Of a DNA stretch of 21,323 nt, positions 1,698 to 21,323 are shown piece by piece. The DNA is from a virus, in IMG/VR virus record IMGVR_UViG_3300044635_000119, positions 1 to 21,323 of that record. One strand, written 5' to 3'. How positions within the stretch are numbered: the first letter of the stretch is position 1; the number at the start of each line of letters is the position of its first letter. A model generated the notes under the pieces. That model did no database searches, was not told the DNA's origin, and saw nothing but the letters and a program-made list of their open reading frames with translations. Position numbers and translations under genes: made by a program.

Positions 1698-2525
1698 ATG
1701 AGTATGAATACATTGAGTTTGAGCAACATAGTTGTTGGTGAAGACTTGCAGAAGTCTCTTGATAAGGAGGGGTTGAAGTTGACTGGCGTGTACTCCATGC
1801 TTGACCCTGTGGTTAGCCGACTGGCTTCATTGAATCCATTGTGGACTTTTGTTATCAACAACAGTGGTATGCACATCGGGTTGTCGTATATGGGTCAACG
1901 CGGGAAGGTTATCTCTATCTCCAACGATCGTATTGGTAAGGGCAGACAACGCTCGGACTCATACCGCACTGTGGATGCAGACAAAGCTATCCTCATGGCG
2001 AAGAAGATGTTTAGCAAAATGAACCCATCCGAGCGTATCAGTAAGGCTAAGGATGCGGCAGAACGTGTAGTGTCTCGGGCGAGCTGGAACAAAGAGCGAG
2101 AGCGTACTCAACATCAAAGCCTTGTTAAGAATGAGATGTTGGCATGGGCTGAGACCAAAGGTAATGCCTTGTTCTTGGAATACCTAAAAGCAGAAGCGAT
2201 ACCCTCGCTTAGACACAAAGTTACTGTCTCTATGGAGAAGGTAGAGTTACTCGATACTGAGATGAAGACTATCGAGAAAGTGCAAGAAGACTTTAGTAAT
2301 AATAAGACTGCGCTAGTAGTCAAAGACTTGGGTAAATACCTAGTCAAAATAGGTGACAACGTGGAACTATACGATGATAATACGCTCCCTCTAGATATGC
2401 GTATGAAAATGGGTATGCTTAAACTTGTGGAAGATGAGCAGTATCTTACTGATGTAGGTTGTAAGGTATCGAGTGAGATATTTGTGTTGTTGGTTGATCT
2501 AACAAATGTTAGCGAAGGAGTATGA
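1698..2525 (+). CDS. Hypothetical phage protein (275 aa)
   Basis: AGGAG (1684-1688) lies 9 nt before the ATG at 1698; an in-frame ATG at 1704 is a less well spaced alternative. I recognise no domain. Residues 1-60 look like a compact alpha/beta region; residues 90-190 are charged and helical with coiled-coil character; the remainder is mixed (KDLGKYLVKIGDNVELYDD). There is no membrane segment. It follows the VWA-like and DUF3150-like genes in one transcription unit and may belong to the same module, but only adjacency suggests this. The last codons overlap a perfect copy of the 14-bp palindrome (2499-2512). Confidence 0.75.
   Translation: MSMNTLSLSNIVVGEDLQKSLDKEGLKLTGVYSMLDPVVSRLASLNPLWTFVINNSGMHIGLSYMGQRGKVISISNDRIGKGRQRSDSYRTVDADKAILMAKKMFSKMNPSERISKAKDAAERVVSRASWNKERERTQHQSLVKNEMLAWAETKGNALFLEYLKAEAIPSLRHKVTVSMEKVELLDTEMKTIEKVQEDFSNNKTALVVKDLGKYLVKIGDNVELYDDNTLPLDMRMKMGMLKLVEDEQYLTDVGCKVSSEIFVLLVDLTNVSEGV
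2499..2512. repeat. CTAAC-N4-GTTAG palindrome, perfect arms (CDS end, before a ribosome-binding site)
   Basis: CTAACAAATGTTAG, perfect. It encodes L-T-N-V near the end of the 275-aa gene and sits 3 nt upstream of the AAGGAG used by the small gene at 2527. Confidence 0.75.
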
Positions 2526-2526
2526 A

Positions 2527-2694
2527 ATGAGAGAAGAAATTAAATACAGTTCAAAGGCTATCCCCCTACGGGGGTGTACTGACCCCAAGTTTAAATATTA
2601 CAACGCCGCCAATACAGACGTACGTAAAACATGGCGTAAGGCTCGCTTGCTTATACGCATTACCAAAGGGGCAGCGTATGAAAGCCGTACTTGA
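2527..2694 (+). CDS. Small basic hypothetical protein (55 aa)
   Basis: The start at 2527 is chosen over the in-frame ATG at 2506 because AAGGAG (2515-2520) is correctly spaced for 2527 and the longer form would overlap the previous gene. The product is basic, with a C-terminal R-K-T-W-R-K-A-R-L-L-I-R-I segment that could contact nucleic acid, though this is only composition. A CCCCC-TAC-GGGGG hairpin lies at 2562-2574 inside the gene. The next gene starts within its 3' end. No family recognised. Confidence 0.55.
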   Translation: MREEIKYSSKAIPLRGCTDPKFKYYNAANTDVRKTWRKARLLIRITKGAAYESRT

Positions 2695-2866
2695 GTTCAC
2701 GTATCCACAAGACGAGACCAAGCTCAAGCATGCGCTCAAGGGTGAGGACTACTACCTAGCATTGATTGATGTTGATCGGGTGCTTAGGAATCCACAACAG
2801 TTTGGAGACCGAGCCGACATGTTCGACAGGATTGGTTTTATCTTAGAGGGAGTACTAGAAGAATGA
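2678..2866 (+). CDS. Small conserved-looking phage protein (62 aa)
   Basis: The ATG at 2678 overlaps the previous gene by 17 nt, and a purine-rich AAAGGGG lies just upstream. The product is acidic and starts MKAVLEFTYP, followed by a helical part with D-V-D-R-V-L-R-N. Short proteins of this kind (an N-terminal strand followed by 'D-x-x-LR') are frequent in phage replication operons but have no known function. The stop overlaps the next start by the ATGA arrangement typical of translational coupling. Confidence 0.65.
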   Translation: MKAVLEFTYPQDETKLKHALKGEDYYLALIDVDRVLRNPQQFGDRADMFDRIGFILEGVLEE

Positions 2867-3054
2867 ATGGGTTTGTAAACCGACAACTTGAGCTTGGAAG
2901 TAAGCAACCCGTACACAAGTACAAGCTATGCAACAAGTGCGAAGAGTTGAAGCCCCCCGAGGGGGGAATCGAATTGTCCCCAAACAGATGGTCATGTGCT
3001 AGATGTTGGGCTAACAGAGTAATAGCAAGGAGTTTATTAAATGCCAAGACCTAA
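2863..3054 (+). CDS. Small zinc-ribbon-like protein (63 aa)
   Basis: It begins in an ATGA overlap with the preceding gene. Two cysteine pairs, C23-x2-C26 (KLCNKCEELK) and C45-x2-C48 (SCARCW), are spaced as in a zinc ribbon that binds one Zn ion. The gap contains a Pro/Gly knuckle encoded by a CCCCCC-GA-GGGGGG inverted repeat (2953-2966). Tiny zinc ribbons in phages usually bind nucleic acid or host proteins, but nothing here says which. The 3' end overlaps the next gene by 14 nt. Confidence 0.7.
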   Translation: MNGFVNRQLELGSKQPVHKYKLCNKCEELKPPEGGIELSPNRWSCARCWANRVIARSLLNAKT

Positions 3055-3262
3055 ACCGCCTGAGCCTTTGATTGGTAGGCAAGTACGACTAAGCGATAGG
3101 CAATTTCATATTCTTAATCACCTCGGTGGTGCGCAATGGCTACGTGATTTATTGGATAAGAAAGACCCATTCCCTAAACAATATTATGAAAGACTGAAAG
3201 ATGACGACAGGAATCGAGAATCTAAAACCGGAACAACAACGCAAGGGGCGGGGGTTAGGTAA
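3041..3262 (+). CDS. Small hypothetical protein (73 aa), possible DNA-binding
   Basis: AGGAG (3028-3032) lies 8 nt before the ATG at 3041. The core V-R-L-S-D-R-Q-F-H-I-L, followed by L-G-G-A-Q-W-L-R-D-L-L, looks like a strand plus two helices, as in small ribbon-helix-helix-type proteins, but the assignment is weak. The C-terminal tail (T-T-T-Q-G-A-G-V-R) looks unconserved and overlaps the next gene by 62 nt, so either the tail here or the start of the next gene may differ in reality. Confidence 0.55.
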   Translation: MPRPKPPEPLIGRQVRLSDRQFHILNHLGGAQWLRDLLDKKDPFPKQYYERLKDDDRNRESKTGTTTQGAGVR

Positions 3263-3407
3263 GAAACCCGCGCTGTTCTGCACGAGCTTGCGTCTACCAA
3301 AGGATGTGATGGATTACTTCAACACAAACTTTGCGTATACAAAGCAAGCCAAGATGAGAGAAATTCTTACTGAGTACGTTAACAACCAAACAGGAAATAA
3401 ATCATGA
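3201..3407 (+). CDS. Ribbon-helix-helix-like protein (68 aa), BrnA-like pattern
   Basis: A basic N-terminus (R-K-G-R-G-L-G-K-K) precedes SLRLPKDVMDYF, then K-Q-A-K-M-R-E-I-L-T-E-Y-V. This is the strand-helix-helix layout of ribbon-helix-helix DNA-binding proteins, including BrnA-type antitoxins. No toxin gene flanks it, so a phage transcription factor is at least as likely as an antitoxin. The start at 3201 has only a weak purine-rich site and overlaps the preceding gene by 62 nt; there is no better ATG downstream before the RHH core. It ends in an ATGA overlap with the next gene. Confidence 0.6.
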   Translation: MTTGIENLKPEQQRKGRGLGKKPALFCTSLRLPKDVMDYFNTNFAYTKQAKMREILTEYVNNQTGNKS

Positions 3408-3967
3408 TCGAATTAGCAACAACAAAAGAGCAACCTAAGATGACCAAGTCAGCACAGATTCGTAACTACGTTGCGAAACACCCAAAGGCTAAGTCAGCAG
3501 ACGTAGCCAAGGCGATAGGCGTAACCCCTGCTTATGTAGCCACAGTAATGTGGACTGCAAAGAAGAAAGCCAAGGTAGCGAAGAAGGCGAAGGCTAACTG
3601 GAAGACGATTGCATTTGCTTCATCGGACATTCCGTTTTATGCGGATTCAGTTACGGATACAACACCCAAACGCATGGCACAACTTGCGTACGAAGCGGGT
3701 GTAGCAAAAGCAAAGTTGCGTATGCAATCTGCGGAAGGCGATCGCCAGATCGAAATGTTCGAGCCTAAACCTGACGCGGTAAATCACCCTGCTCATTACA
3801 AAGTAGGTGGAATCGAGACGATTGATTTCATTGAAGCGAAGAAGCTTGGCTACAACCTTGGCAACGTGGTGAAGTACATCACACGTGCCGACCACAAAGA
3901 CAACAAGTTGGAAGACTTGCGTAAGGCACAATGGTATCTGACACGTGAGATCAATTCACTCAAGTGA
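3404..3967 (+). CDS. DUF3310-domain protein with N-terminal HTH-like region (187 aa)
   Basis: Residues 127-185 (VNHPAHYK, then GIETIDFIEAKKLG, then VVKYITRADHK, then KAQWYLTREI) match DUF3310. This domain is found in T7 gp1.7 nucleotide kinase and many phage proteins and is often annotated as nucleotide-kinase-related. Residues 14-50 (SAQIRNYVAKHP, SADVAKAIGVTPAYVATVMW) read as a winged or simple helix-turn-helix, followed by a Lys/Ala-rich basic linker (52-65). The combination suggests a DNA-binding or scaffold segment added to the DUF3310 domain; that is inference. It starts in an ATGA overlap and is the last gene before the terminator at 4005-4027. Confidence 0.8.
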   Translation: MIELATTKEQPKMTKSAQIRNYVAKHPKAKSADVAKAIGVTPAYVATVMWTAKKKAKVAKKAKANWKTIAFASSDIPFYADSVTDTTPKRMAQLAYEAGVAKAKLRMQSAEGDRQIEMFEPKPDAVNHPAHYKVGGIETIDFIEAKKLGYNLGNVVKYITRADHKDNKLEDLRKAQWYLTREINSLK

Positions 3968-3970
3968 CAC

Positions 3971-3984
3971 CTAACATTTGTTAG
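3971..3984. repeat. CTAAC-N4-GTTAG palindrome, perfect arms (intergenic)
   Basis: CTAACATTTGTTAG, perfect arms, 3 nt after the stop codon of the DUF3310 gene and 20 nt before the terminator stem. A GTTAG direct copy follows at 3989-3993. Confidence 0.75.
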
Positions 3985-4004
3985 AAACAGTTAGGGAAAC
4001 TACT

Positions 4005-4027
4005 AGCCACCTTCGGGTGGCTTTTTT
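4005..4027 (+). terminator. Intrinsic terminator, TTCG tetraloop
   Basis: AGCCACC (4005-4011), loop TTCG (4012-4015) and GGTGGCT (4016-4022) form a perfect 7-bp stem with a very stable tetraloop, running into six T residues (4022-4027). It closes the first operon, immediately upstream of the promoter at 4040. Confidence 0.92.
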
Positions 4028-4039
4028 ACGTCTGTACTA

Positions 4040-4052
4040 TTGACTTTGTCAA
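4040..4052. promoter_or_regulatory. Putative operator, TTGAC-N3-GTCAA
   Basis: TTGACTTTGTCAA is a perfect 5+3+5 inverted repeat covering the -35 box. The only other copy found (10013-10025) has the same position relative to a second promoter. A protein bound here should block or modulate RNA polymerase; the regulator is not identified. Confidence 0.6.
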
Positions 4053-4067
4053 AGGTTGTGCTATCAT
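4040..4067 (+). promoter_or_regulatory. sigma70-like promoter of the polymerase/nuclease/helicase operon
   Basis: -35 TTGACT (4040-4045), 16-bp spacer, -10 TATCAT (4062-4067). It lies directly after the terminator and about 30 nt before the start codon at 4097, giving a short leader beginning near 4074. The -35 is embedded in the palindrome TTGAC-TTT-GTCAA. Confidence 0.75.
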
Positions 4068-4096
4068 CGAGGCTCGAAAATATTTTGGAGTATCAG

Positions 4097-4435
4097 ATGG
4101 ACACACGCATGGAGTCAGCTTTAGCCCTTGCAGATAAGTGTTGGTCAAAGGCCAACCGAACAAGCCCCGAGTTTGTTGAGCGTTACTTAGAGCTAGCCGA
4201 AGAGTTGCTAGTATCAAAGCCCGTTGTTCTTGGTGATGAGTTCCGAGAATACTGCGGCAAGAAACTTTTATTCCGACCCAAAGAGTTGCACCCTAACGTA
4301 TGGGTGTCAGGCGTACGCACTCTGAGTACGCTCGGATGGATTGCCCACAATGGTTACACGACACCGACCAAGTCGCACAACCACATGCCTTCGGTCTCAG
4401 TATGGAAGAGCATGATCTATGGCAATGACACCTGA
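4097..4435 (+). CDS. Hypothetical phage protein (112 aa)
   Basis: The start at 4097 is chosen because GGAG (4087-4090) precedes it and the in-frame TTG at 4040 lies in the -35 box. Residues 5-40 are helical (SALALADKCWSKA, PEFVERYLELAEELL). The second half (GDEFREYCGKKLLFRPKEL, then GVRTLSTLGWIAHNGYT, then HNHMPSVSVWKS) has the look of a small winged-helix-like domain common beside phage VRR-NUC genes. It has no membrane segment. It overlaps the VRR-NUC gene by 17 nt. Function unknown; a DNA-binding partner is plausible but unproven. Confidence 0.75.
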   Translation: MDTRMESALALADKCWSKANRTSPEFVERYLELAEELLVSKPVVLGDEFREYCGKKLLFRPKELHPNVWVSGVRTLSTLGWIAHNGYTTPTKSHNHMPSVSVWKSMIYGNDT

Positions 4436-4721
4436 AGCCAAGGTCAAGGCAAAGATCAAGGCTATCTTAAAAGCCCATAACATCTACTACGCTATGCCTA
4501 TTGGTACTGGATACGGCAATAGCGGTGTGCCCGACTTCCTGTGCTGTGTGTACGGGTACTTCATTGCAATTGAAGCCAAAGCGGGTAATGGTACAACTAC
4601 CGCGCTACAAGAAAAAAACCTAACAAATGTTAGGGAGTCCGGTGGCGTAGCGTTGGTCATCAACGAAACAAACTTAGCCGATATTGAAATGCACATTAGG
4701 TTGGCAAGGGGTATGCAGTGA
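4419..4721 (+). CDS. VRR-NUC domain nuclease (100 aa)
   Basis: This is a single-domain VRR-NUC protein of the PD-(D/E)XK superfamily. Visible catalytic residues are D39 in SGVPDFL, E52 and K54 in IEAKAG, and Q64 in ALQEKN. Length and motif spacing are normal for stand-alone phage VRR-NUC enzymes. These act on DNA with structure preferences such as Holliday junctions or flaps, so a role in resolving replication or recombination intermediates is likely. ATG 4419 is used; ATG 4425 is an alternative. A perfect 14-bp palindrome (4620-4633) lies within the gene. The GTG start of the polymerase gene overlaps its stop codon. Confidence 0.88.
   Translation: MAMTPEAKVKAKIKAILKAHNIYYAMPIGTGYGNSGVPDFLCCVYGYFIAIEAKAGNGTTTALQEKNLTNVRESGGVALVINETNLADIEMHIRLARGMQ
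4620..4633. repeat. CTAAC-N4-GTTAG palindrome, perfect arms (in CDS)
   Basis: CTAACAAATGTTAG, identical to the copy at 2499-2512. Inside the VRR-NUC gene it is read as L-T-N-V. Confidence 0.75.
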
Positions 4722-11729: not shown

Positions 11730-14582
11730 ATGTCATCTTTCGATCTACTTGATACGGTACTGCCACCGGAAGGGCGCTACTGTGTGATGGGGATTGGTAA
11801 GTACCCTGACCAAAAATTTGTAGATACTAAGGAAGAGGTTGAAGAGTTAGCGCAGCGATTTGTTAAACGGAAGATTGACGTATTCTTTGGATGCGCCAAG
11901 TACGGCTCGTTAAATAACCGCACTCATGAGAATGCCAAATACTTCCGTGCTCTGTGGATGGACATTGACTGTGGCCCCACAAAAGGTGTACCCGACGAAA
12001 AAGGCATTATCAAGGGCTATCTCGATCAGCAAACTGGACTCGATGAGTTCAAGAAGTTCTGCGTTGCGGTCGGCTTACCAAAGCCAATACTAGTTAGCTC
12101 TGGCTACGGCATACATGCGTACTGGCTACTAGAAGAAACAGTGTCTCGCCGAGAGTGGGAGCCACTAGCCAATCGGCTTCGTGAGTTGTGCGTTGAGCAA
12201 GGGTTGATTGTGGACTCCTCAGTATTTGAGGCTTCACGCATCCTGCGTATCCCCGGCACATTCAACTTCAAGCAGAAAGAGCCTAAAGAGGTAACAGTAC
12301 TAAATGAACTGACGCCTCGCATGACGTATCAAGAGTTGAAAGACTTGCTTGGTGCGCCTGAGCCAAAAGACGACGTACCCGATTTCATCCCGCGCTCAAT
12401 GAGCCCGATGATGGAAGCACTCATGGGTAACAAGGTCAAGCGGTTTAAGACGATCATGATGAAGGGTGAAGGTGGGTGCGCCCAACTTAACCACTGTTTT
12501 GCTAACCAAAACAGCATTGAAGAACCACTGTGGCGCTCCGCTCTTTCTATTGCAGCTTTCTGCGTAGACGGAGACAAGGCCGCACATAAACTGTCGAGCG
12601 AACACGAGGGCTACGATCCCGCAGAAGTTGACAACAAGGTTAACAATCTGCGCAAGAAAGGTGGCCCACATCACTGCTCAACATTTGCAAAACTCAATCC
12701 GCAAGGTTGTGAGGGTTGCATCCATAGAGGCAAAATTAAATCGCCCATCATGCTCGGTGTTGAGATTGAAGAAGCCGACGCAGAAGATAACGAATATGCC
12801 GTCGAAGATGAAGACGGTGAGGTTGAGATACAGCACATACCAGAGTACCCATTTCCGTTCTTTCGTGGCAAAAAGGGTGGTGTTTACATCCGCCCTGAAA
12901 GCGAAGATGACGAAGCCGAGCCCAAACTTGTTTACGAGCACGACTTGTATGTAGTCAAGCGCATGCGTGACCCTGAGCTTGGCGAGATAGCTTTGTTTCG
13001 TTTGCACTTACCGCATGACGGTGTTCGAGAGTTCAGCATCCCTACGATGGGTATCTCTTCACCCGATGAGTTGCGCAAACAGTTGGCACACAACGGAGTT
13101 GTAGCCCATAAGTCACAGTACGAATTGCTTGCAAGGTATGTTGTTTTCTTTATAAAAAATTTGCAATACATTAAAAAGGCAGAGACCATGAGAACTCAGT
13201 TTGGTTGGGTCGAGGGGAACAGCAAGTTCATCCTTGGCGATCGAGAGATCACAAAAGACGGCGTGTTTTACAGCCCCCCGTCAAGCGTTACGAAAGATAT
13301 TGCCGGAAAGCTAATTGCCAAAGGCTCTATGGAGAAGTGGAAAGAAGCGTTCAACATGTACGCTAAGCCCGGGCTTGAACCCCATGCGTTTGCCGCACTC
13401 ACGGCATTTGGCTCACCACTGTTGAAATTTACAGGTCTTGAAGGCGCGATCATTAACGTAATTCACCCTGAGTCTGGTTCAGGTAAGTCGACAGCATTGT
13501 TTATGTGCAACAGTGTGTATGGTGAACCCAAGGGGTTGACCTCCATGTACAAAGATACATTCAACGCAAAGATGCACCAGCTTGGCGTGATGAACAATTT
13601 GCCCAACACCATTGACGAGATCACCAACCTTAGTGGCATGGAGTTCTCTGACTTGGCGTACAGCATCAGCCAAGGCCGAGGCAAAAATAAAATGAACGGG
13701 CAAACCAATACGTTGCGTGTTAACAACACTAGCTGGCAGGGTATGACTTTGTGCTCGGCAAACGCCAGCTTCTACGAGAAGTTAGGTGTGGCAAAGAATA
13801 CGCCCGATGGCGAGTCCATGCGTCTGCTTGAGTACAAGATTGAACCCAACGGCATCATTGATGTGCAAGAGGGTAAGCAGATGTTTGACCACCAGCTTCG
13901 TGAGAACTTTGGTCATGCCGGTGAGATTTACATCCAATGGCTTGTTAATAACTTGGAAGAAGCAATAGCCTTAGTACGCAAGATTCAGGCTCGGCTTGAT
14001 AGGGAAGTACAGTTCAACCAAAAGGAGCGTTTCTGGTCAGGTGTGTCAGCTTGCAACATAGCTGGCGGTTTGATTGCTTCACAGTTGGAACTGCACAACT
14101 ACGACATGAAGGCCGTGTACGACTGGCTCAAAGGCATGTTAGGCGAGATGCGGTTTGAAATCCAAGCACCGAATTCAACACCCGTAACAATCCTTGGTGA
14201 GTTTGTTAACGCTCACATTAATAATGCTTTAGTTGTAAATGGTGAAGTCGATGCTCGTAGTAACCTGCAGTCCATGCCCATGCTTGAGCCTCGTGGAGAG
14301 CTGCTCATACGCTACGAGCCAGATACCAAAGAACTCTTCATCGCGGCCAAACAATTCAAAGACTTCTGCGTCAAACAGCAGATCAACTACAAGACTACCT
14401 TAAAAGAGTTAGGTAACGCCAAGATTTACTTAGAGGGTGTGAACAAACGAATGTCCAAAGGCATGAAGGTTGTATCCCCTGCAGTGCGTGTATTGAAGTT
14501 TGACGCATCCTCCGCCGAGTTCTTACAGATGGACGCTTTTGTAACCCCCGATGAAAATCGAGACAGTAACGTATCAGATTGA
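11730..14582 (+). CDS. AEP-type primase fused to a DUF927-like P-loop domain (950 aa)
   Basis: Residues 1-190 form an archaeo-eukaryotic-type primase: D78-x-D80 in LWMDIDCG, H129 in SGYGIHAYW, and R170-I-L-R-I-P-G-T-F-N-F-K181. A zinc-binding cluster follows, with C316, C327 and C330 (GGPHHC, GCEGC). Residues about 540-700 match the DUF927-type P-loop region: Walker A S582-G-S-G-K586-S-T, Walker B T627-I-D-E630, then Y-S-I-S-Q-G-R-G-K-N-K and W-Q-G-M-T-L-C-S-A-N. The enzyme should make primers and use ATP, probably to translocate on or unwind DNA. An acidic stretch (340-375) separates the halves. It follows the HTH gene by 3 nt with only a weak Shine-Dalgarno. Confidence 0.9.
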   Translation: MSSFDLLDTVLPPEGRYCVMGIGKYPDQKFVDTKEEVEELAQRFVKRKIDVFFGCAKYGSLNNRTHENAKYFRALWMDIDCGPTKGVPDEKGIIKGYLDQQTGLDEFKKFCVAVGLPKPILVSSGYGIHAYWLLEETVSRREWEPLANRLRELCVEQGLIVDSSVFEASRILRIPGTFNFKQKEPKEVTVLNELTPRMTYQELKDLLGAPEPKDDVPDFIPRSMSPMMEALMGNKVKRFKTIMMKGEGGCAQLNHCFANQNSIEEPLWRSALSIAAFCVDGDKAAHKLSSEHEGYDPAEVDNKVNNLRKKGGPHHCSTFAKLNPQGCEGCIHRGKIKSPIMLGVEIEEADAEDNEYAVEDEDGEVEIQHIPEYPFPFFRGKKGGVYIRPESEDDEAEPKLVYEHDLYVVKRMRDPELGEIALFRLHLPHDGVREFSIPTMGISSPDELRKQLAHNGVVAHKSQYELLARYVVFFIKNLQYIKKAETMRTQFGWVEGNSKFILGDREITKDGVFYSPPSSVTKDIAGKLIAKGSMEKWKEAFNMYAKPGLEPHAFAALTAFGSPLLKFTGLEGAIINVIHPESGSGKSTALFMCNSVYGEPKGLTSMYKDTFNAKMHQLGVMNNLPNTIDEITNLSGMEFSDLAYSISQGRGKNKMNGQTNTLRVNNTSWQGMTLCSANASFYEKLGVAKNTPDGESMRLLEYKIEPNGIIDVQEGKQMFDHQLRENFGHAGEIYIQWLVNNLEEAIALVRKIQARLDREVQFNQKERFWSGVSACNIAGGLIASQLELHNYDMKAVYDWLKGMLGEMRFEIQAPNSTPVTILGEFVNAHINNALVVNGEVDARSNLQSMPMLEPRGELLIRYEPDTKELFIAAKQFKDFCVKQQINYKTTLKELGNAKIYLEGVNKRMSKGMKVVSPAVRVLKFDASSAEFLQMDAFVTPDENRDSNVSD

Positions 14583-14798: not shown

Positions 14799-14827
14799 AT
14801 CCCCGGCTAATCACTGGGGATTTTTTT
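14799..14827 (+). terminator. Intrinsic terminator of the primase operon
   Basis: ATCCCC (14799-14804) and GGGGAT (14816-14821) form the stem around an 11-nt loop, followed by seven T (14821-14827). The stop codon of the convergent giant gene (14811-14813) lies in the loop. On the minus strand the hairpin is followed by AAAAGGAG instead of a U run, so it should work in one direction only. Confidence 0.8.
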
Positions 14828-17800
14828 CGGCCTTTCGCCTAGCCGCCATCTCTTCGGCCCGTTTGTCTAAACGGTCTTCAAGCGTATTTACAGCCTCTTC
14901 AACTAATCCAATATTTTTCTTGGTGACGGCTACACCAGCACGAGCACCTTCGCGTTGTTTGGCTTTTTCCCTTAGCGAATTCTTAATGCTGTTGCCATCT
15001 AACTTATACGTTGGATGCTTGATGTTAAATTTAATTACTTCATTTTCTAAAATGTTGTTGAATTCTTCAGCGCCCTTGTCCGTATCTTTACGAAGCTGGA
15101 AATCCAATTTGTTTAGAATCATATTGCGTTGGTTAACAATTCTTTGCTCAATGCCGGTTAACTTAAATGCTGGCCCTTGAGTAGCTGCAAGAATGTCAGG
15201 ACGGAAACCAATTGCTTGACCAAGCAGCTCGCCCTTCTTTACGTCATCTTTGCTAACTAATTCTTTACCACGTGGGGTCTTCATGCCTTCGTCTGCATAT
15301 TTGTTAGCAACCACAAGATTACGTACGGCAGCGGGAAGCATCTTTTCTAACATCTTCTGATAGTCACCCATTGCGTAAGCATCGTAGGCGTCGGCAAAAC
15401 CAAGCAGTAAACTTGCAGTTGGGCCACCAAAGTGATCCAGCATAAATGCAATTGCGCTTTCGCGAGAAGTCTTAGTCTCTTTACTATCACGGCCCCACAG
15501 ATCATTCAAACCAATACGAGAGCCAATGTCGTAGCCTGTGATTGCATTCAATGGGCCACGGTCAACAATGTCACTTACAGGTACGCCACCAATCGTAACG
15601 TCACCTAGCTTCTCAGGCAAGAACACAGTGCGGAACCAAGTCTCAAAGTCTAGGTTTTTAAGTTCTTCAGGCCAATCATCGTCAAGCTCTAATTGACCCC
15701 AAGCCCAACCAACAAGTCCCATAATGGGACTAAACAAAGCCATGTTTGCCGCGCCAGCGAGCAAGAACGATGTGCCCATCATGCCGAAGAACTTAGTAGC
15801 TGCTTCCTTTTTGCCCTCTTTATTAAGGAAGGGGAGCATCTTCTTAAAGTTAGTTAACAACAGCAGAGACATCTGCAGTGGGTACGTCTTAAACTGGAAC
15901 GCAATCTTGCCAATACCCTGTTGCATAAAACGTGGGCGATTAGTAATGTCGTAATTACCAAGCGCTTCGTTAGTAGAGTCAACTGCTTTTTGAACAGCGT
16001 CATCGTAGCTAAGCCCTTGCTTCTTACCCAGCCTATACGCAGCTAGGTAGACGGCCTCACGACTCAAACGTTCTGTGTTGTGCATCAGAGCGCCGACCAT
16101 CAGGTTTGCAATACGCTTGCCTTTTCCCTTGATACCTTCAAACTGCTCGGTGGACATGCTCTTGTAGCCCCACACTAAAGAAGCGTAAGTAGACTCAGAC
16201 ACACCACGGGCTGTCATTTCACTGACGGCTTTGCGTTCATCTTCAGGAATAGATTTACTGTTAGCAATACTTGGCGCAGTGATAGAAGTTGTGCCGTCTG
16301 CGTTAGTGCGGAATACACTGTACTGATTGACCAAGGTGGTCATTTTTGCAAGCTCAGTAGCCGCGCCTGTAGCGTTGTTGTAATTACCGGCAAGTACGGG
16401 CAAGCCAGAAATGAATACGCTAGAAGGCTGAATCAAAGCCGACGCAGCGGAAGACAAGTACCAGAAGTAAGACGCCTTGTTTGCGATTCCAGCAACAGAC
16501 TCACTTAAAGAACCATGATCGCCAGACAACGCCATGTCAATACGCTTCTCAGCTTCTTGCACAAACGGTGATAACTCTTCACGTTCGTTGATTGAATCAC
16601 GTGCAGCCGACAATGAAAGGCGAAGCTTAGGCGCGTACTTCAAACGTGCCAACTGAATGGATTGCTTAGAAGCAGTAGTGGCAATGTTGCGCTGCAAGTC
16701 TGTGCTGAAACCACCACGCCCTTTACGATGAGTGAACTGCCTGCGGAATGACTGCTCCGGCATCGTGGTCAAATAGATTTGGTAGACCGCATCCTTTAAA
16801 CCTTCTTTAGCCGAAGGAGAGCCCAAGTCTTTGGCGTCGATTGCTTCAAAGATTTTCTTAAGCATCTCGCTTGAGTTCTGTGATGCGGCACGTAGTGTCT
16901 TAAGGTCGTTACCTTGCACGAACTCTTGACGGAACAGCACGTCTTCGTAGTCTTCTCCACGCTTTGCGGCTAACTCTTTAGCCTTAGCATTACGCTCCGC
17001 ACGGCTTTCAAACAAATAGAACAAGCGGTTTTCGCCTGAACCAATTGCTAACCAATAGTCACCACGACGCACCAATGGGAAGAAAGGTTTGATCCTTGCA
17101 TCAGCCTCAAAGGTCTTGCGTATGAGAGCCATCAAGTTTTTCTTCTCTTCAGGAGCCATACCCTGAATACCATTGATCTGCTCGTCTAACAAATCGGAGT
17201 ACAACTCAATGACTGACTCGTAGTAATCCCGCAATTGCTTGTACATGCGCTGACCGACAGGGCCAAGTGCTTTGTAGTCGGCGGCAAGAGTTGTTGTTTT
17301 TGGCGCAGGCTTAGCACCCTTTTTAGTTTTCTTCTCTTTACGCTCTACTTCTACTTCACGTGCATTTGGGTCAGATGGGTCAACCTCTGCCAACGTAGTG
17401 GCGTATATAAAGTCTGAAAACTTCTCACGGCTAAGCTTAGGGTCTTCTTTGAAACCACGGTTGAGCGAACCAATGACTTGTTCGGCACCAGCTAAGAACT
17501 GCTGAGACATACCTAACATGCGTTGTAGCTGCGTATTTGTTTCGCTAAGCGCAGAGATACCCACATCAGCGGCCCACTTAGCCAAAAAGTCAAACGTGGG
17601 TAAGCGCACTGAAGCTTGTAGTTTGAGGTACCCCATATCATCAACTGCGTTGGCTAGAATTTGCCGAACAGCTTTAGGGTCACGTGCCGTCTGCATCAGA
17701 CTTACATTCTTAGCCTCCTCGCCTTCGCGGGACAAACGTACTTTTTCTTTTGCAATCTTTACGTCTTTAGCAAGCTGGAGGGCGGAACGTTTTGCTTTTA

Positions 17801-20800
17801 GGTCAGCCTCTTCGTCAAACTCGGGAGGAGTGAACTTACCCTTTTGCTGGAGTGCGCCACCTTTTGTATCAACTTTAGTTAGCCTTGTGCCGAGCATCTT
17901 GTCAGTAATATCGACCAGATCAGTAAACGCAGTTGCATCTCCGGCCTTAACACCAAACAAGTCGCGGATGCTATCGACAAAACCAGAGAAGCCTGTGCCC
18001 CGTTTACCTTGCACGCTCATCAAGAACTTCTGGAACTCAGGGCTAGACATGCCGTAAGCCAAGAACTCATGGGGATCGGAGAACACACCGATAGATACTT
18101 TGCCCGTTCTGTCGCGGTCAGTAGTGCCTTCAATCATTTGTTGCACTTCTGGGGATAGTTCGCCAAACAGCACGCCTTCTTCATACGCTTCTTGCGTACG
18201 TTTCATCAGGCTTTCCATTTCGCGCATAAACTTCTGCAAGCTGGCGTTCTTAAAGCCTTTTAATAGACCTGCTTCAATACGACTAGCCGTTGCTGCATGC
18301 AGCAATTCGTGCAACACTGTTATAACGTTTATGCCTTGTTGGTCTCCGAAGCTACTACCACGCACGTAGATAGTACGTTCTTTAGACCCGGGCGTATACA
18401 CAAACAAACCACGCGCACCGCTTAGCTGAGGCGGTACTGGATCACCCTTCTCAACCACCACAAACTTAACACCAATTACAAAGTTGCGTATGCGTTGCGC
18501 CACAAACCGCTGGAATAGATTACCAGTCTTAATGATGTGCGCAATAGCTTGTGAGCCGTTAGTCAGATTGCTAAACCCTGTGTCGGGCTTGGCTACCCTT
18601 GCTTCAGAAGAACGCAAACCTTTGGGTATGTCTTTTGGATCAATCTCGTCCTCAAGCATTTGCTGGGCACGCTCACGTGCGGCTTTAGGCACATTTGGGT
18701 CAACTGCGGCATCACTAATGTACAGTGCTGCGTTTCTAGCTTCTTTGTCATTCGTAGTTGAGTTGTACGTTTCAAGCGCTGATTCCAACCTATTAATTTC
18801 GTCACGCGCTTCTTGATCTACCTCAGTAGTACCATCTTTTGACGGAGCTTTAGGTGGTCGGCCTCGCCCCGTAGACTTAAGTGCTGCATCTAGCTTCTCT
18901 TGATTTTTAGCAATTAGTGCAGCATCGCCTTTATCTTTAGATCTTGCCAAATTAACAGCCGCAATAGCTTGCTTCTTGTTCTTGTAAGTTGCAGTTACTT
19001 CGCCATCTGTAACATGGTCAAACCCACCTTCGGAATTTTCTGTAACTACGTGGCGTTGCTGAACAGGTGGCCGACCACGTTTGCCTTTGCTTACTGCTCC
19101 GGCTGGTGGTGCTTCTTGTCCTTCTTGCGTTGTTTCGATGGTTTCAGAGGTTTCAGGGCCACTTATGTTTCCTTCTTGGCGTTGGGTTATTTCTGTTTTT
19201 ACAAGGTTGTATTCAGCATCACTAAGACTAGTGTTAGTAAGTTCTGTATCAAGCTGCTCGTCTGATAACGCACGAATAGTATCGGGTGTAACTGCCCCAC
19301 GAGTTAACGCAAAGGGCTGTGGTTTTGTTTCTGCAGGTGTTTCTTTTGACGTTCCTCTAGCGGCGTCAAGTTCGTCAAGTTGTTTAATAATGGCGTCAAA
19401 TTTAGCTGAAGCCTCTTTACGCTTGGCTTCTAAAGCCTTTACAGCTTCGTATTTTTTGTCTGAGTCGTATTTACCGTTTTCATCAAGAACCAACGGCTTG
19501 CCGTCGTCGCCTAGAACGTCTGCTGCGCGAACACTATCTAAGTCAAGTAGTTTGTCTAGTAGAACCGAGCTCTCTTCGCTTACTGCATCGAGTTGTTTAG
19601 TAAGCTCATCTCGTTTTTCAAAATACGCTACCGTGTCTGATATGCCTTTGTCTTTTTCTTCGTCCGTTAATGCAGCCTGCTGTGCTCCTTCTCCAGTAGT
19701 AGCTCCTGCAGTAGTCTGTCCAGCAGGAACCACTCCACTTGTGTCAACTCCAGCAGTTCCTCCGGCGGGGAGTTCTGGACTGGGCTGTTCAGCCACGCTA
19801 ACGCTTTCTCCACTTGGAGTACTGATAGGTTCAGCAACATCTGCTGTTCCTCCTGTTTCGTTCTGCGCAAGCTCATCTGCTTGTGCCTCCTGTTGGGCTA
19901 AGTTCTGGGCGTCAATCTTTGCCTGTTGTGGTGGAACCCCAACCGCAATCAGTTCTTGTGCAATCTGTTCAACACGACCTTCAGGTATCTTAATAGCGAT
20001 AGTCTTAGCTTCAGCCTTTAACTGTGCATCAACTTTACGCGCAGCAATATTCCCAGCGTTTTCTGCGGGGATACCTTGTTGGATATAAACTTTGGTAAGC
20101 GCATCAATTCTGTCGGCACGAACTTTCTCGGGGGTTTCCGCAGGTGCTTCTTCTTTTTTCTCCGCCGCAAGTTCAGCGTTGATTGTGGCTTGTTGTTCAG
20201 CCATCTTAGCATCACGCAAGTTAGAGCGTGCTTCAATGGGAGCAGTAACACCTTCCGCTATGGCTTCAAGTAACACGTCGGCGGGTTTGTCTTCACCTGT
20301 AGCTTTTTGTGCGGCAAGTTCACCACCTGCACCACCACCCATTTGTAAAGCAAGCTCTTTACCCCACGCCGCCATCGTAGCTTTTTTAGCCGCAGTACCA
20401 GCGAGTTTGCCTTCAGCAATAAGAGCCTGTGCAGGCTTCAAGAATCTACCAGCTATGCCCATAGACAAAGCATCAAACGTGCCAATAATTAGACCACGCT
20501 TAGCGCCCTTTTCTTTGATCTCGTCCATGATCTTGGGGTTAGACAAGGCTCTGGATATTGCGTTTGCGTCCAGCATGTTGACGCCTTTGTCTTGCAAGAC
20601 ATCAGCCATGACCGAGCCGTACTCAATACCGCCAGAACTAAGACCAGCCGCACCCGAACGAGCCACAACTCCAGCCGGGCCGAGCACCAAAGAAGGCACC
20701 ATACCGGGCAAAGATACAGCTAGAGACTCCACCAACATTGTGAATGTTGCACGTGGGTTAGAAGCCAGAGCGGAGATAGCCTCACCGTAAGTTTCGGAGT

Positions 20801-21323
20801 TGCCGATTTCCATCATACCCGCACGGATATCTTGAGAAGGGGCAGCGGCTGCTCTCTGTTTTGCGTTGCGTGCCAGTAAACGCCCTGCGGCATCAGCGTC
20901 GGCTACGCCTGTCTGGAACAAATAACTTGTAGCTATGTCCCCTAGGCTTGCGTCTACGCGCTTAAACATATTGCCGGTTGCTTCTGCGGCATATTTTCCG
21001 GGGGATTCAGTAAACTTAGTTTCAGGTGTGGCTTTAATTTCGCCAACGGGTTCAGTCCTAGCGCGAGGTGGCACAGGCGCAGTCATTGGCGCTTGTTGTT
21101 TAAAGTAATCGCTACCCCGTTGTTGCCCGTGCTTAATTACATCTTCAAACTTAACGCCCATGTTTTCAAGGGACTGTTTTAGTTTTGCTTGGTCAGCGCC
21201 TTCTTCAAGGAGGTTGACGGCATCGTCAAGCATTTCAACCCGATTTTTATACGGGGCACGTTTAGGTGGCTCAGATACTTTTTCTACTACGGGAGTAGAC
21301 GAAGCAAGCTTTGGCGCAGTGGC
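14811..21323 (-). CDS. Giant internal-virion/polyvalent-type protein with zincin and PLxRFG motifs (partial, at least 2,170 aa)
   Basis: The frame stays open to the right edge, 30 codons beyond the Met at 21233, so the true start is outside the window. Numbering from that Met: a Gly/Ala/Pro-rich hydrophobic region near 165-290; a low-complexity A/P/E/T region 340-520; a coiled coil 530-640; RGRPP at 719-723 and 790-794; HELLH 975-979 with E1056 (DPHEFLAYG) as likely third zinc ligand; a PLVRRG motif 1386-1391 (the PLxRFG signature, here PLxRRG); a membrane-like segment about 1815-1848; a conserved C-terminal block near 1970-2035 (AAVRNLVVANKYADEGMKT); and a final helix. Such proteins are carried in virions and thought to be ejected, protecting or processing DNA and crossing the envelope. 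Virion location and peptidase activity are inferred. Confidence 0.85.
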   Translation of the reverse strand, partial: ATAPKLASSTPVVEKVSEPPKRAPYKNRVEMLDDAVNLLEEGADQAKLKQSLENMGVKFEDVIKHGQQRGSDYFKQQAPMTAPVPPRARTEPVGEIKATPETKFTESPGKYAAEATGNMFKRVDASLGDIATSYLFQTGVADADAAGRLLARNAKQRAAAAPSQDIRAGMMEIGNSETYGEAISALASNPRATFTMLVESLAVSLPGMVPSLVLGPAGVVARSGAAGLSSGGIEYGSVMADVLQDKGVNMLDANAISRALSNPKIMDEIKEKGAKRGLIIGTFDALSMGIAGRFLKPAQALIAEGKLAGTAAKKATMAAWGKELALQMGGGAGGELAAQKATGEDKPADVLLEAIAEGVTAPIEARSNLRDAKMAEQQATINAELAAEKKEEAPAETPEKVRADRIDALTKVYIQQGIPAENAGNIAARKVDAQLKAEAKTIAIKIPEGRVEQIAQELIAVGVPPQQAKIDAQNLAQQEAQADELAQNETGGTADVAEPISTPSGESVSVAEQPSPELPAGGTAGVDTSGVVPAGQTTAGATTGEGAQQAALTDEEKDKGISDTVAYFEKRDELTKQLDAVSEESSVLLDKLLDLDSVRAADVLGDDGKPLVLDENGKYDSDKKYEAVKALEAKRKEASAKFDAIIKQLDELDAARGTSKETPAETKPQPFALTRGAVTPDTIRALSDEQLDTELTNTSLSDAEYNLVKTEITQRQEGNISGPETSETIETTQEGQEAPPAGAVSKGKRGRPPVQQRHVVTENSEGGFDHVTDGEVTATYKNKKQAIAAVNLARSKDKGDAALIAKNQEKLDAALKSTGRGRPPKAPSKDGTTEVDQEARDEINRLESALETYNSTTNDKEARNAALYISDAAVDPNVPKAARERAQQMLEDEIDPKDIPKGLRSSEARVAKPDTGFSNLTNGSQAIAHIIKTGNLFQRFVAQRIRNFVIGVKFVVVEKGDPVPPQLSGARGLFVYTPGSKERTIYVRGSSFGDQQGINVITVLHELLHAATASRIEAGLLKGFKNASLQKFMREMESLMKRTQEAYEEGVLFGELSPEVQQMIEGTTDRDRTGKVSIGVFSDPHEFLAYGMSSPEFQKFLMSVQGKRGTGFSGFVDSIRDLFGVKAGDATAFTDLVDITDKMLGTRLTKVDTKGGALQQKGKFTPPEFDEEADLKAKRSALQLAKDVKIAKEKVRLSREGEEAKNVSLMQTARDPKAVRQILANAVDDMGYLKLQASVRLPTFDFLAKWAADVGISALSETNTQLQRMLGMSQQFLAGAEQVIGSLNRGFKEDPKLSREKFSDFIYATTLAEVDPSDPNAREVEVERKEKKTKKGAKPAPKTTTLAADYKALGPVGQRMYKQLRDYYESVIELYSDLLDEQINGIQGMAPEEKKNLMALIRKTFEADARIKPFFPLVRRGDYWLAIGSGENRLFYLFESRAERNAKAKELAAKRGEDYEDVLFRQEFVQGNDLKTLRAASQNSSEMLKKIFEAIDAKDLGSPSAKEGLKDAVYQIYLTTMPEQSFRRQFTHRKGRGGFSTDLQRNIATTASKQSIQLARLKYAPKLRLSLSAARDSINEREELSPFVQEAEKRIDMALSGDHGSLSESVAGIANKASYFWYLSSAASALIQPSSVFISGLPVLAGNYNNATGAATELAKMTTLVNQYSVFRTNADGTTSITAPSIANSKSIPEDERKAVSEMTARGVSESTYASLVWGYKSMSTEQFEGIKGKGKRIANLMVGALMHNTERLSREAVYLAAYRLGKKQGLSYDDAVQKAVDSTNEALGNYDITNRPRFMQQGIGKIAFQFKTYPLQMSLLLLTNFKKMLPFLNKEGKKEAATKFFGMMGTSFLLAGAANMALFSPIMGLVGWAWGQLELDDDWPEELKNLDFETWFRTVFLPEKLGDVTIGGVPVSDIVDRGPLNAITGYDIGSRIGLNDLWGRDSKETKTSRESAIAFMLDHFGGPTASLLLGFADAYDAYAMGDYQKMLEKMLPAAVRNLVVANKYADEGMKTPRGKELVSKDDVKKGELLGQAIGFRPDILAATQGPAFKLTGIEQRIVNQRNMILNKLDFQLRKDTDKGAEEFNNILENEVIKFNIKHPTYKLDGNSIKNSLREKAKQREGARAGVAVTKKNIGLVEEAVNTLEDRLDKRAEEMAARRKAEKNPQ

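Follow-up and report, generated by a model that had tools for sequence, protein, structure and literature searches.

We propose that the product of the giant gene on the minus strand of IMG/VR virus record IMGVR_UViG_3300044635_000119 (21,323 bases, analysed at full length and called the window here) is a podovirus ejection protein, the third of its set and in the gp16 position, which has grown into a polyvalent protein, and we put the probability of this reading at about 0.82. The giant very probably travels in the virus head and is driven into the bacterium along with the DNA. The proposal is supported by the position of the gene in close relatives, by domain homologies, by a conserved catalytic motif and by homologues known as internal virion proteins. 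A preliminary description of this DNA, made from the letters alone, had compared the product to polyvalent or ejected virion proteins, and the position in the ejection module, the homology to internal virion proteins and the PLxRFG and LPD39 domains support that comparison well.

The open reading frame (ORF) occupies 14811..21323 (minus strand) and, as had been described, encodes at least 2,170 residues and stays open to the contig end; it has 2,140 residues when counted from the first in-window ATG. Its true start lies beyond the window. A relative, locus L001, is 100% identical over the overlap and holds the complete gene (L001:5770-12411) for a protein of 2,213 residues, of which the window covers residues 44-2213. 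Residue numbers below are those of the 2,170-residue protein, P0001, unless stated otherwise; adding 43 gives the numbering of the full protein.

One line of evidence is a zincin domain at residues 925-1148 (17880..18551, minus strand), found by hhalign and by a PDB profile match. By pairwise hhalign E-values the domain matches the phiKMV gp37 family (2.8e-15) and domain C1 of the N4 virion RNA polymerase, vRNAP (7.6e-12), and these two also match each other (2.5e-11). A profile of nine relatives matched PDB chain 9sfn_G, named 'Internal virion protein', over the zincin with E 9.9e-11. The HELLH motif lies at residues 1005-1009 (18297..18311, minus strand), which is 975-979 in the count from the first in-window ATG used in the preliminary description. 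An HExxH motif in N4 vRNAP C1 is stated in the accessible text of PMC12633501. The two histidines, the glutamate and a downstream glutamate are invariant in 9 of 9 aligned relatives, 6 of 6 phiKMV-gp37-like proteins and 8 of 8 N4-like vRNAPs. This downstream glutamate, residue 1086 in the sequence EFLAY (18066..18068, minus strand), is a candidate third zinc ligand, given its invariance in the three alignments. With both HExxH and profile homology to known members, the domain belongs to the metallopeptidase (MPTase) zincins of ejection proteins. Loss of HExxH in homologues had been named beforehand as an outcome that would refute the assignment; the motif is instead kept in 70 of 74 unique complete relatives, counted after 5'-truncated ORFs and duplicates were dropped (57 with one copy, 13 with two and four with none). 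Because of this recurrence HELLH is not a chance match. Among the four proteins lacking it, L123 comes from a split gene and represents the C-terminal half; the remaining half, L074, has HExxH.

The first AlphaFold2 (AF2) model is weak overall (pLDDT 66.5, pTM 0.38) and good over the zincin part (pLDDT 76-93). Since all Z values from VIA on this model fall below 8, the zincin assignment is based on the sequence profiles. Among the fold matches in BFVD are an entry from PAO1_Ab05 named 'Putative internal (Core) protein' (E 2.9e-8) and one from CRP-4 named 'Internal virion protein D' (E 2.9e-4); the TM-scores of the two are low (0.14-0.18). VIA also aligned Certhrax over 152 residues (Z 6.9, root-mean-square deviation, rmsd, 5.1) and anthrax lethal factor over 149 residues (Z 6.7, rmsd 4.1). 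These resemblances favor a delivered effector, in which the zincin would be a host-directed peptidase that, once injected, cuts a protein of the host's defence or envelope, with the remainder of the giant as its delivery chassis, and so do the variable effector-like cassettes of relatives described below (ART-PolyVal, and in 13 a GHKL-like ATPase with a second HExxH). However, the alignment covers residues 44-263 of lethal factor, the non-catalytic N-terminal domain of that fold, and the likeness is one of fold only, with no match among PDB sequences at E<=1. The zincin is also the constant part of the giants rather than a variable cassette, and it is common to ejection proteins of phages with quite different hosts. 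An effector of this kind is possible but unlikely. Considering that the domain occurs in ejection proteins across very different hosts and was not found in three complete relatives, a general, dispensable accessory step is no worse an explanation than a single specific defence target. Catalysis by the zincin, and its substrate, are inferred.

The peptidase might alternatively cut the giant itself, before packaging or on ejection. According to the accessible text of Iyer et al. 2017 (PMC5512222), self-processing has been proposed for MPTases of polyvalent proteins and argued for phage P1 DdrB. Two relatives have the giant split into two ORFs, inside the Gly-rich region in L008 (8529-9638 and 9644-14308) and behind the zincin in L074 (2-3295 and 3154 on). 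These splits may be natural fission or sequencing error, the latter at least as likely; with that reservation, the places at which the ORFs part would suit self-processing. On the other side, the same accessible text states that the N4 vRNAP has a homologous MPTase and yet enters the particle without being processed, though the region is needed for encapsidation. Self-cleavage before packaging is therefore not assumed here, and we regard self-processing as a whole as doubtful.

The C-terminal region carries the second line of evidence. An LPD39 domain (Pfam PF18858) was found at residues 1298-1398 (17130..17432, minus strand) with E 1.4e-9 and 38.3 bits against a gathering score of 27, which places the giant among polyvalent proteins. 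It is followed at residues 1413-2137 (14913..17087, minus strand) by the PLxRFG 'tail-700' domain (NF032893, 'PLxRFG domain-containing'), with E 7.3e-104 and 348.6 bits against a curated cut-off of 100. The PLVRRG motif noticed earlier at 1386-1391, again counted from the first in-window ATG, is residues 1416-1421 of this domain (17061-17078). By tblastn, 47 named phage records match P0001, 35 of them (H1-H35) via the PLxRFG part, 11 via the N-terminal membrane-like region and one via the zincin. The 'conserved end block' of the preliminary description is thereby borne out, the C-terminal ~880 residues being found more widely than any other part (in 35 of the 47 named records). Its 'hydrophobic C-terminal region' stands in so far as such stretches are present, e.g. 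residues 1801-1900 with 48% hydrophobic residues, and must be supplemented by a second, Gly/Ala-rich one near the N-terminus (residues ~165-380). The statement that most of the length lacks a recognisable domain is no more than partly true, given the named domains in the C-terminal ~840 residues and the ~220 residues of the zincin. A second AF2 model, of the C-terminal 881 residues of the L001 giant alone and built from 58 sequences, is nearly all helical (pLDDT 79.1, pTM 0.66) and gave no convincing PDB match; no N4 chain is among the fold matches listed for it, which decides nothing either way.

The C-terminus is also matched by PHROG 10089, 'DarB-like antirestriction', which would suggest an antirestriction protein of the DarB type. 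The best stretch, however, covers only profile positions 3945-4635 of 4647, that is, the common PLxRFG part. No methylase or helicase domain was found in P0001 by Pfam to E 1, and the SNF2 helicase of the window is a separate gene, all of which makes a DarB-type protein very improbable.

The gene neighbourhood in close relatives agrees with an ejection protein. In L016 and L008 the genes encode, in order, proteins of ~690, ~213, ~922-968, ~350-360 and ~500 residues and then the giant; the same order is seen in L003, L005 and L010 as far as the contigs reach. Two genes upstream of the giant, L001 encodes a 355-residue protein that matches PHROG 4287 'DNA ejection protein' (E 4.3e-10), and the 686-residue protein of L016 matches a virion structural family in PHROGs (E 3.4e-59). 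No PHROG match was obtained for the ~490-, ~1044- and ~213-residue neighbours among the proteins scanned. In close relatives the giant is thus the last of the clustered ejection-protein genes, as is gp16 in T7 and its relatives according to the accessible text of PMC8954989; because of the neighbour order and the PHROG ejection and structural matches, we consider that the ejection module ends with the giant. Three genes upstream of it lies a highly variable gene (L001:66-3200, with relatives of ~922 residues), the copies in contigs G002 and G004 being 48-62% identical to that of G001 in otherwise close phages. Its product is possibly a binder of variable partners.

Several observations weigh against this assignment. 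Presence in virions is drawn from homology only, namely the phiKMV record, the name of 9sfn_G and the phiM5 proteome note given below. The sole link between the PLxRFG domain and phiKMV gp37 is a motif of 28-30 residues (PRFMQQGIGKIAFQFK...), with P 4.5e-4 to 5e-3 against 0.17-0.87 for reversed controls, and the first half of the domain showed no match to gp37 (0.16-0.21). A comparison of the PLxRFG domain with N4 C2 gave no significant profile match (hhalign P 0.01-0.37, reversed controls 0.09-0.58). The top VIA row, PhiM1 ejectosome chain 8vb2_A (Z 7.4, 322 residues), has an rmsd of 25.3, and PDB Foldseek searches gave no match at E<0.001. For L012, L019 and L023 the ORF list, which is cut off at 120 residues, does not show the ~213-residue gene, and more distant relatives (e.g. 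L060, L064 and L097) have other genes upstream of the giant. Finally, no zincin was found in 3 of 74 complete relatives (L128, L140 and L299), a count in which a zincin without HExxH and too diverged for BLAST at E 1e-4 would appear as absent. Because of these three, zincin catalysis is not indispensable, and they would also suit a catalytically silent zincin kept for structure. Such a silent scaffold is improbable in view of the HExxH and downstream glutamate that are invariant across three distant alignments.

An ejection protein of this kind would be packaged in the head with the other ejection proteins, exit through the tail ahead of the DNA or together with it, and be delivered into and across the inner membrane. 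Peptides at the N-terminus, referred to as tags below, may dock it to a partner; the Gly-rich region may insert in the membrane and AT-hook-like RGRP motifs may hold DNA. The zincin would act as a peptidase during or just after ejection, on the giant itself, on ejection partners or on a host protein, while the PLxRFG domain would be the common core that places the giant in the virion or ejectosome.

Among known systems, phiKMV gp37, whose record is labelled 'internal virion protein with endolysin domain', likewise has a zincin with HExxH...E and is the third of clustered internal virion proteins. It differs in length, with 1,337 residues against mostly 2,000-3,300 for the giants, and in a C-terminus related only through the short motif. 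The tetrameric ejection protein of PhiM1 is grouped with the gp37 type by its fold match; no word beginning with 'protease' or 'metallo' occurs in the accessible text of the PhiM1 paper (PMC11440229). The N4 vRNAP gp50 (Schitoviridae) also has a zincin (C1) ahead of a large C-terminal domain, but its RNA polymerase domain is not found in the giant and the homology of C2 to PLxRFG is not significant. No single-subunit RNA polymerase domain appeared in Pfam, NCBIfam and PHROGs scans or among PDB sequence matches to E 1, and the giant has no unassigned stretch as long as the ~1,100-residue polymerase of N4. Lastavirus-type PLxRFG or 'DarB-like' giants, such as SopranoGao gp6 (4,369 residues), share the PLxRFG domain at the C-terminus (27% identity), preceded at a distance of 230 residues by an HExxH, whereas gp6 is about twice the length of the giant and the match is limited to the C-terminal part. 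MPTase polyvalent proteins, as treated in the accessible text of PMC5512222, share the multidomain plan, an LPD domain, a zincin and, with some relatives, an ADP-ribosyltransferase. The giants differ in their swappable N-terminal tags and, in the longer relatives, in a GHKL-like ATPase; the words GHKL and Hsp90 are absent from the main text of that paper. It is noted that a zincin match was also found in Limnohabitans phage YIMV22061, in a 1,576-residue protein with an N-terminal SLT domain whose gene lies behind tail tubular genes.

The part of P0001 ahead of the zincin begins with linker and helix-like sequence (residues 1-165), followed by the Gly/Ala-rich region at residues ~165-380 (20184..20831, minus strand). 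Parts of this region also occur, by tblastn, in Xanthomonas phage CP2 and its relatives as well as in Limnohabitans phage DC33, and its composition suggests a role at the membrane. Residues ~380-920 are linker, of which a stretch at about 557-717 is skipped by local alignment between close relatives. Two RGRP motifs, found with the pattern [KR]GRP, resemble AT-hooks, one within KGKRGRPPVQQ (19068..19079) and the other within STGRGRPPKAP (18855..18866), both on the minus strand. The pattern occurs in 34 of 52 giants, compared with 2.95 expected from shuffles of each protein, and most matches lie ~150-260 residues ahead of HExxH. The 34 include L005, whose only match is inside the zincin, and L085, with a match at residue 266, and they do not amount to 34 independent events since close relatives inherit the motif together.

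The tags occupy the first 30-60 residues of the full proteins, just outside the window. They are not one family; up to 16 kinds were sorted by eye, some of them perhaps variants of one (FSFEEA/FSLEEA/SIEEAFG; WETIVP/W.VVSETP). Some are mini-domains of ~30 residues (MPIYEYQG... in this virus, MAIEAKLADGR...FPDG..., QTATNPQTGE...), and others are short motifs (GRDLSAELF, FTSFTPIEE, WETIVP, AALAKQFGG, W.PPSDAVV), mostly in two or three copies joined by Pro/Ala linkers. A tag is carried by 51 of 53 unique giants, the two exceptions being split ORFs whose upstream pieces carry one; since the sequences had already been seen when the regular expressions that define the kinds were drawn up, this figure is a description and no test. 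In 26 of the 53 the best internal 9-residue repeat of the first 90 residues lies within the tag and scores above all 40 shuffles, and in five further giants a repeat above all shuffles lies in the Pro/Ala linker. Tags differ even between L001 and L003/L016, which are 93% identical at residues 101-400 and 91-95% at the C-terminus. In ten giants a further tag lies behind the membrane-like region, in nine of the same kind as at the N-terminus and in one (L058) of another kind; the nine fall in two clades and so do not represent nine events. The internal tag of L070 is PTEPTIGRDLSAELFG where L071 and L075 have PTEPTIGEGWETIVPAG, in surroundings that are alike, and each matches its own N-terminus. 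In other genes of loci L001-L103 no tags were found save for one KFVPL in a 129-residue minus-strand ORF, IYEYAG inside the ~950-residue gene of two loci, and the tags on the split-off N-terminal ORFs of L008 and L074.

Six kinds were searched against 50,697 phage records. Three of them matched, in seven records, four of which have E <= 0.01, and all four of these matches lie at the N-terminus of a protein encoded behind other ejection or late genes. They are ORF31 of Sinorhizobium phage phiM5, the third 'putative internal virion protein', annotated as 'detected in phage particle proteome'; a Rhizobium RHph_N65 protein directly behind a 'putative injection protein' and ahead of a lysin gene; the third 'ejection protein' of Pseudanabaena phage Pan3; and a hypothetical protein of MW202796 behind two hypothetical genes and a 'stabilization protein', which we read from its gene context as ejection-type. 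The four records are absent from the 47 that match the giant, and their proteins are otherwise unlike it. The tags of L070 (limit E 10) and of L066 and L071 (limit E 1) had no match in named phages. Matches of the L003 tag to SEN22 (two records) and Kapi1, at E 0.5-0.6, were not counted. The tag-like peptide of P22-like SEN22 (L302, 2501-2563, E 0.5) is in frame at the C-terminus of the second ejection protein and is perhaps chance, perhaps a tag on another ejection protein.

The strongest argument that the tags serve a function of the ejection protein itself, such as packaging, docking or exit order, is that all four matches start ejection-type proteins. We suggest tentatively, at somewhat less than even odds, that they form a swappable address code for the last podovirus ejection protein, each kind having its own partner that recognises it, which might be the portal, the scaffold, a different ejection protein or a factor of the host. 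The ~360-residue neighbour was rejected as that partner, its L003 and L010 copies being 96% identical although the tags differ; among the best 40 pairs with different tags, the figures for the ~500- and ~922-residue neighbours, 60% and 83%, point neither way. A comparison of contigs G001-G004 gave no partner: the end of G002 falls within the gene three upstream of the giant, and for most G001 late genes neither G002 nor G003 shows a counterpart. The T4 capsid targeting sequence and the encapsulin cargo peptides are short terminal peptides that direct cargo into a shell. The tags could likewise direct cargo from a terminal position, and differ in being of many kinds, often in tandem and sometimes internal. 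In a thin literature search no paper on swappable tags of ejection proteins was found.

The relatives also vary between their shared domains. In 13 long relatives of 2,802-3,269 residues (L149:2831-12637, L101:2298-11009 and 11 other loci) a second HExxH lies 241-246 residues before the C-terminal domain, in a domain weakly YgjP-like, below cut-off, in the two scanned. Between it and the zincin lies a GHKL-like ATPase, with HATPase_c below cut-off in 2 of 2 scanned, an N-box E[LI]FQN[SG] in 13 of 13, and DNGxG by pattern in 7 of 13 and by eye, as DNGLG, in L101. ART-PolyVal, an ADP-ribosyltransferase, is clear in the variable part of L149 (E 1e-25) and below cut-off in L010 and L012; it was not found in the giant of the window. 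Prophage scans with strict peptide patterns gave no locus in a first genome scan and one locus (L299) in a second, of 84,980 genomes. Limnohabitans phage DC33 (PQ492659.1, L026) is filed as Inoviridae, a label that looks wrong because its 39-kb record encodes a 3,125-residue polyvalent protein (LPD22, ART-PolyVal).

The plus strand of the window is a replication block with DNA polymerase A, SNF2 helicase, PD-(D/E)XK nuclease, DUF927 and DUF3310 by Pfam. The DUF927 protein of 950 residues (11730..14582, plus strand), assigned by Pfam and ORF order, is convergent with and separate from the ejection protein, and its gene (~950 residues) adjoins the giant in many relatives. At the contig start (3-533) lies a truncated VWA-like DUF2201 protein, with a weak, sub-cut-off end of the putative metallopeptidase domain DUF2201_N.

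Through this analysis a previously nameless giant ORF gains a place in the ejection machinery. A single zincin domain ties together the ejection proteins of phiKMV-like, N4-like and PLxRFG phages, and the role of this peptidase-like domain is therefore testable in cultivated phages. The address code, if true, would decide either packaging or ejection order, and phages could exchange it without exchanging the remainder of the protein. Should the tags prove to be signals for packaging or docking, they might serve to bring selected proteins into phage heads.

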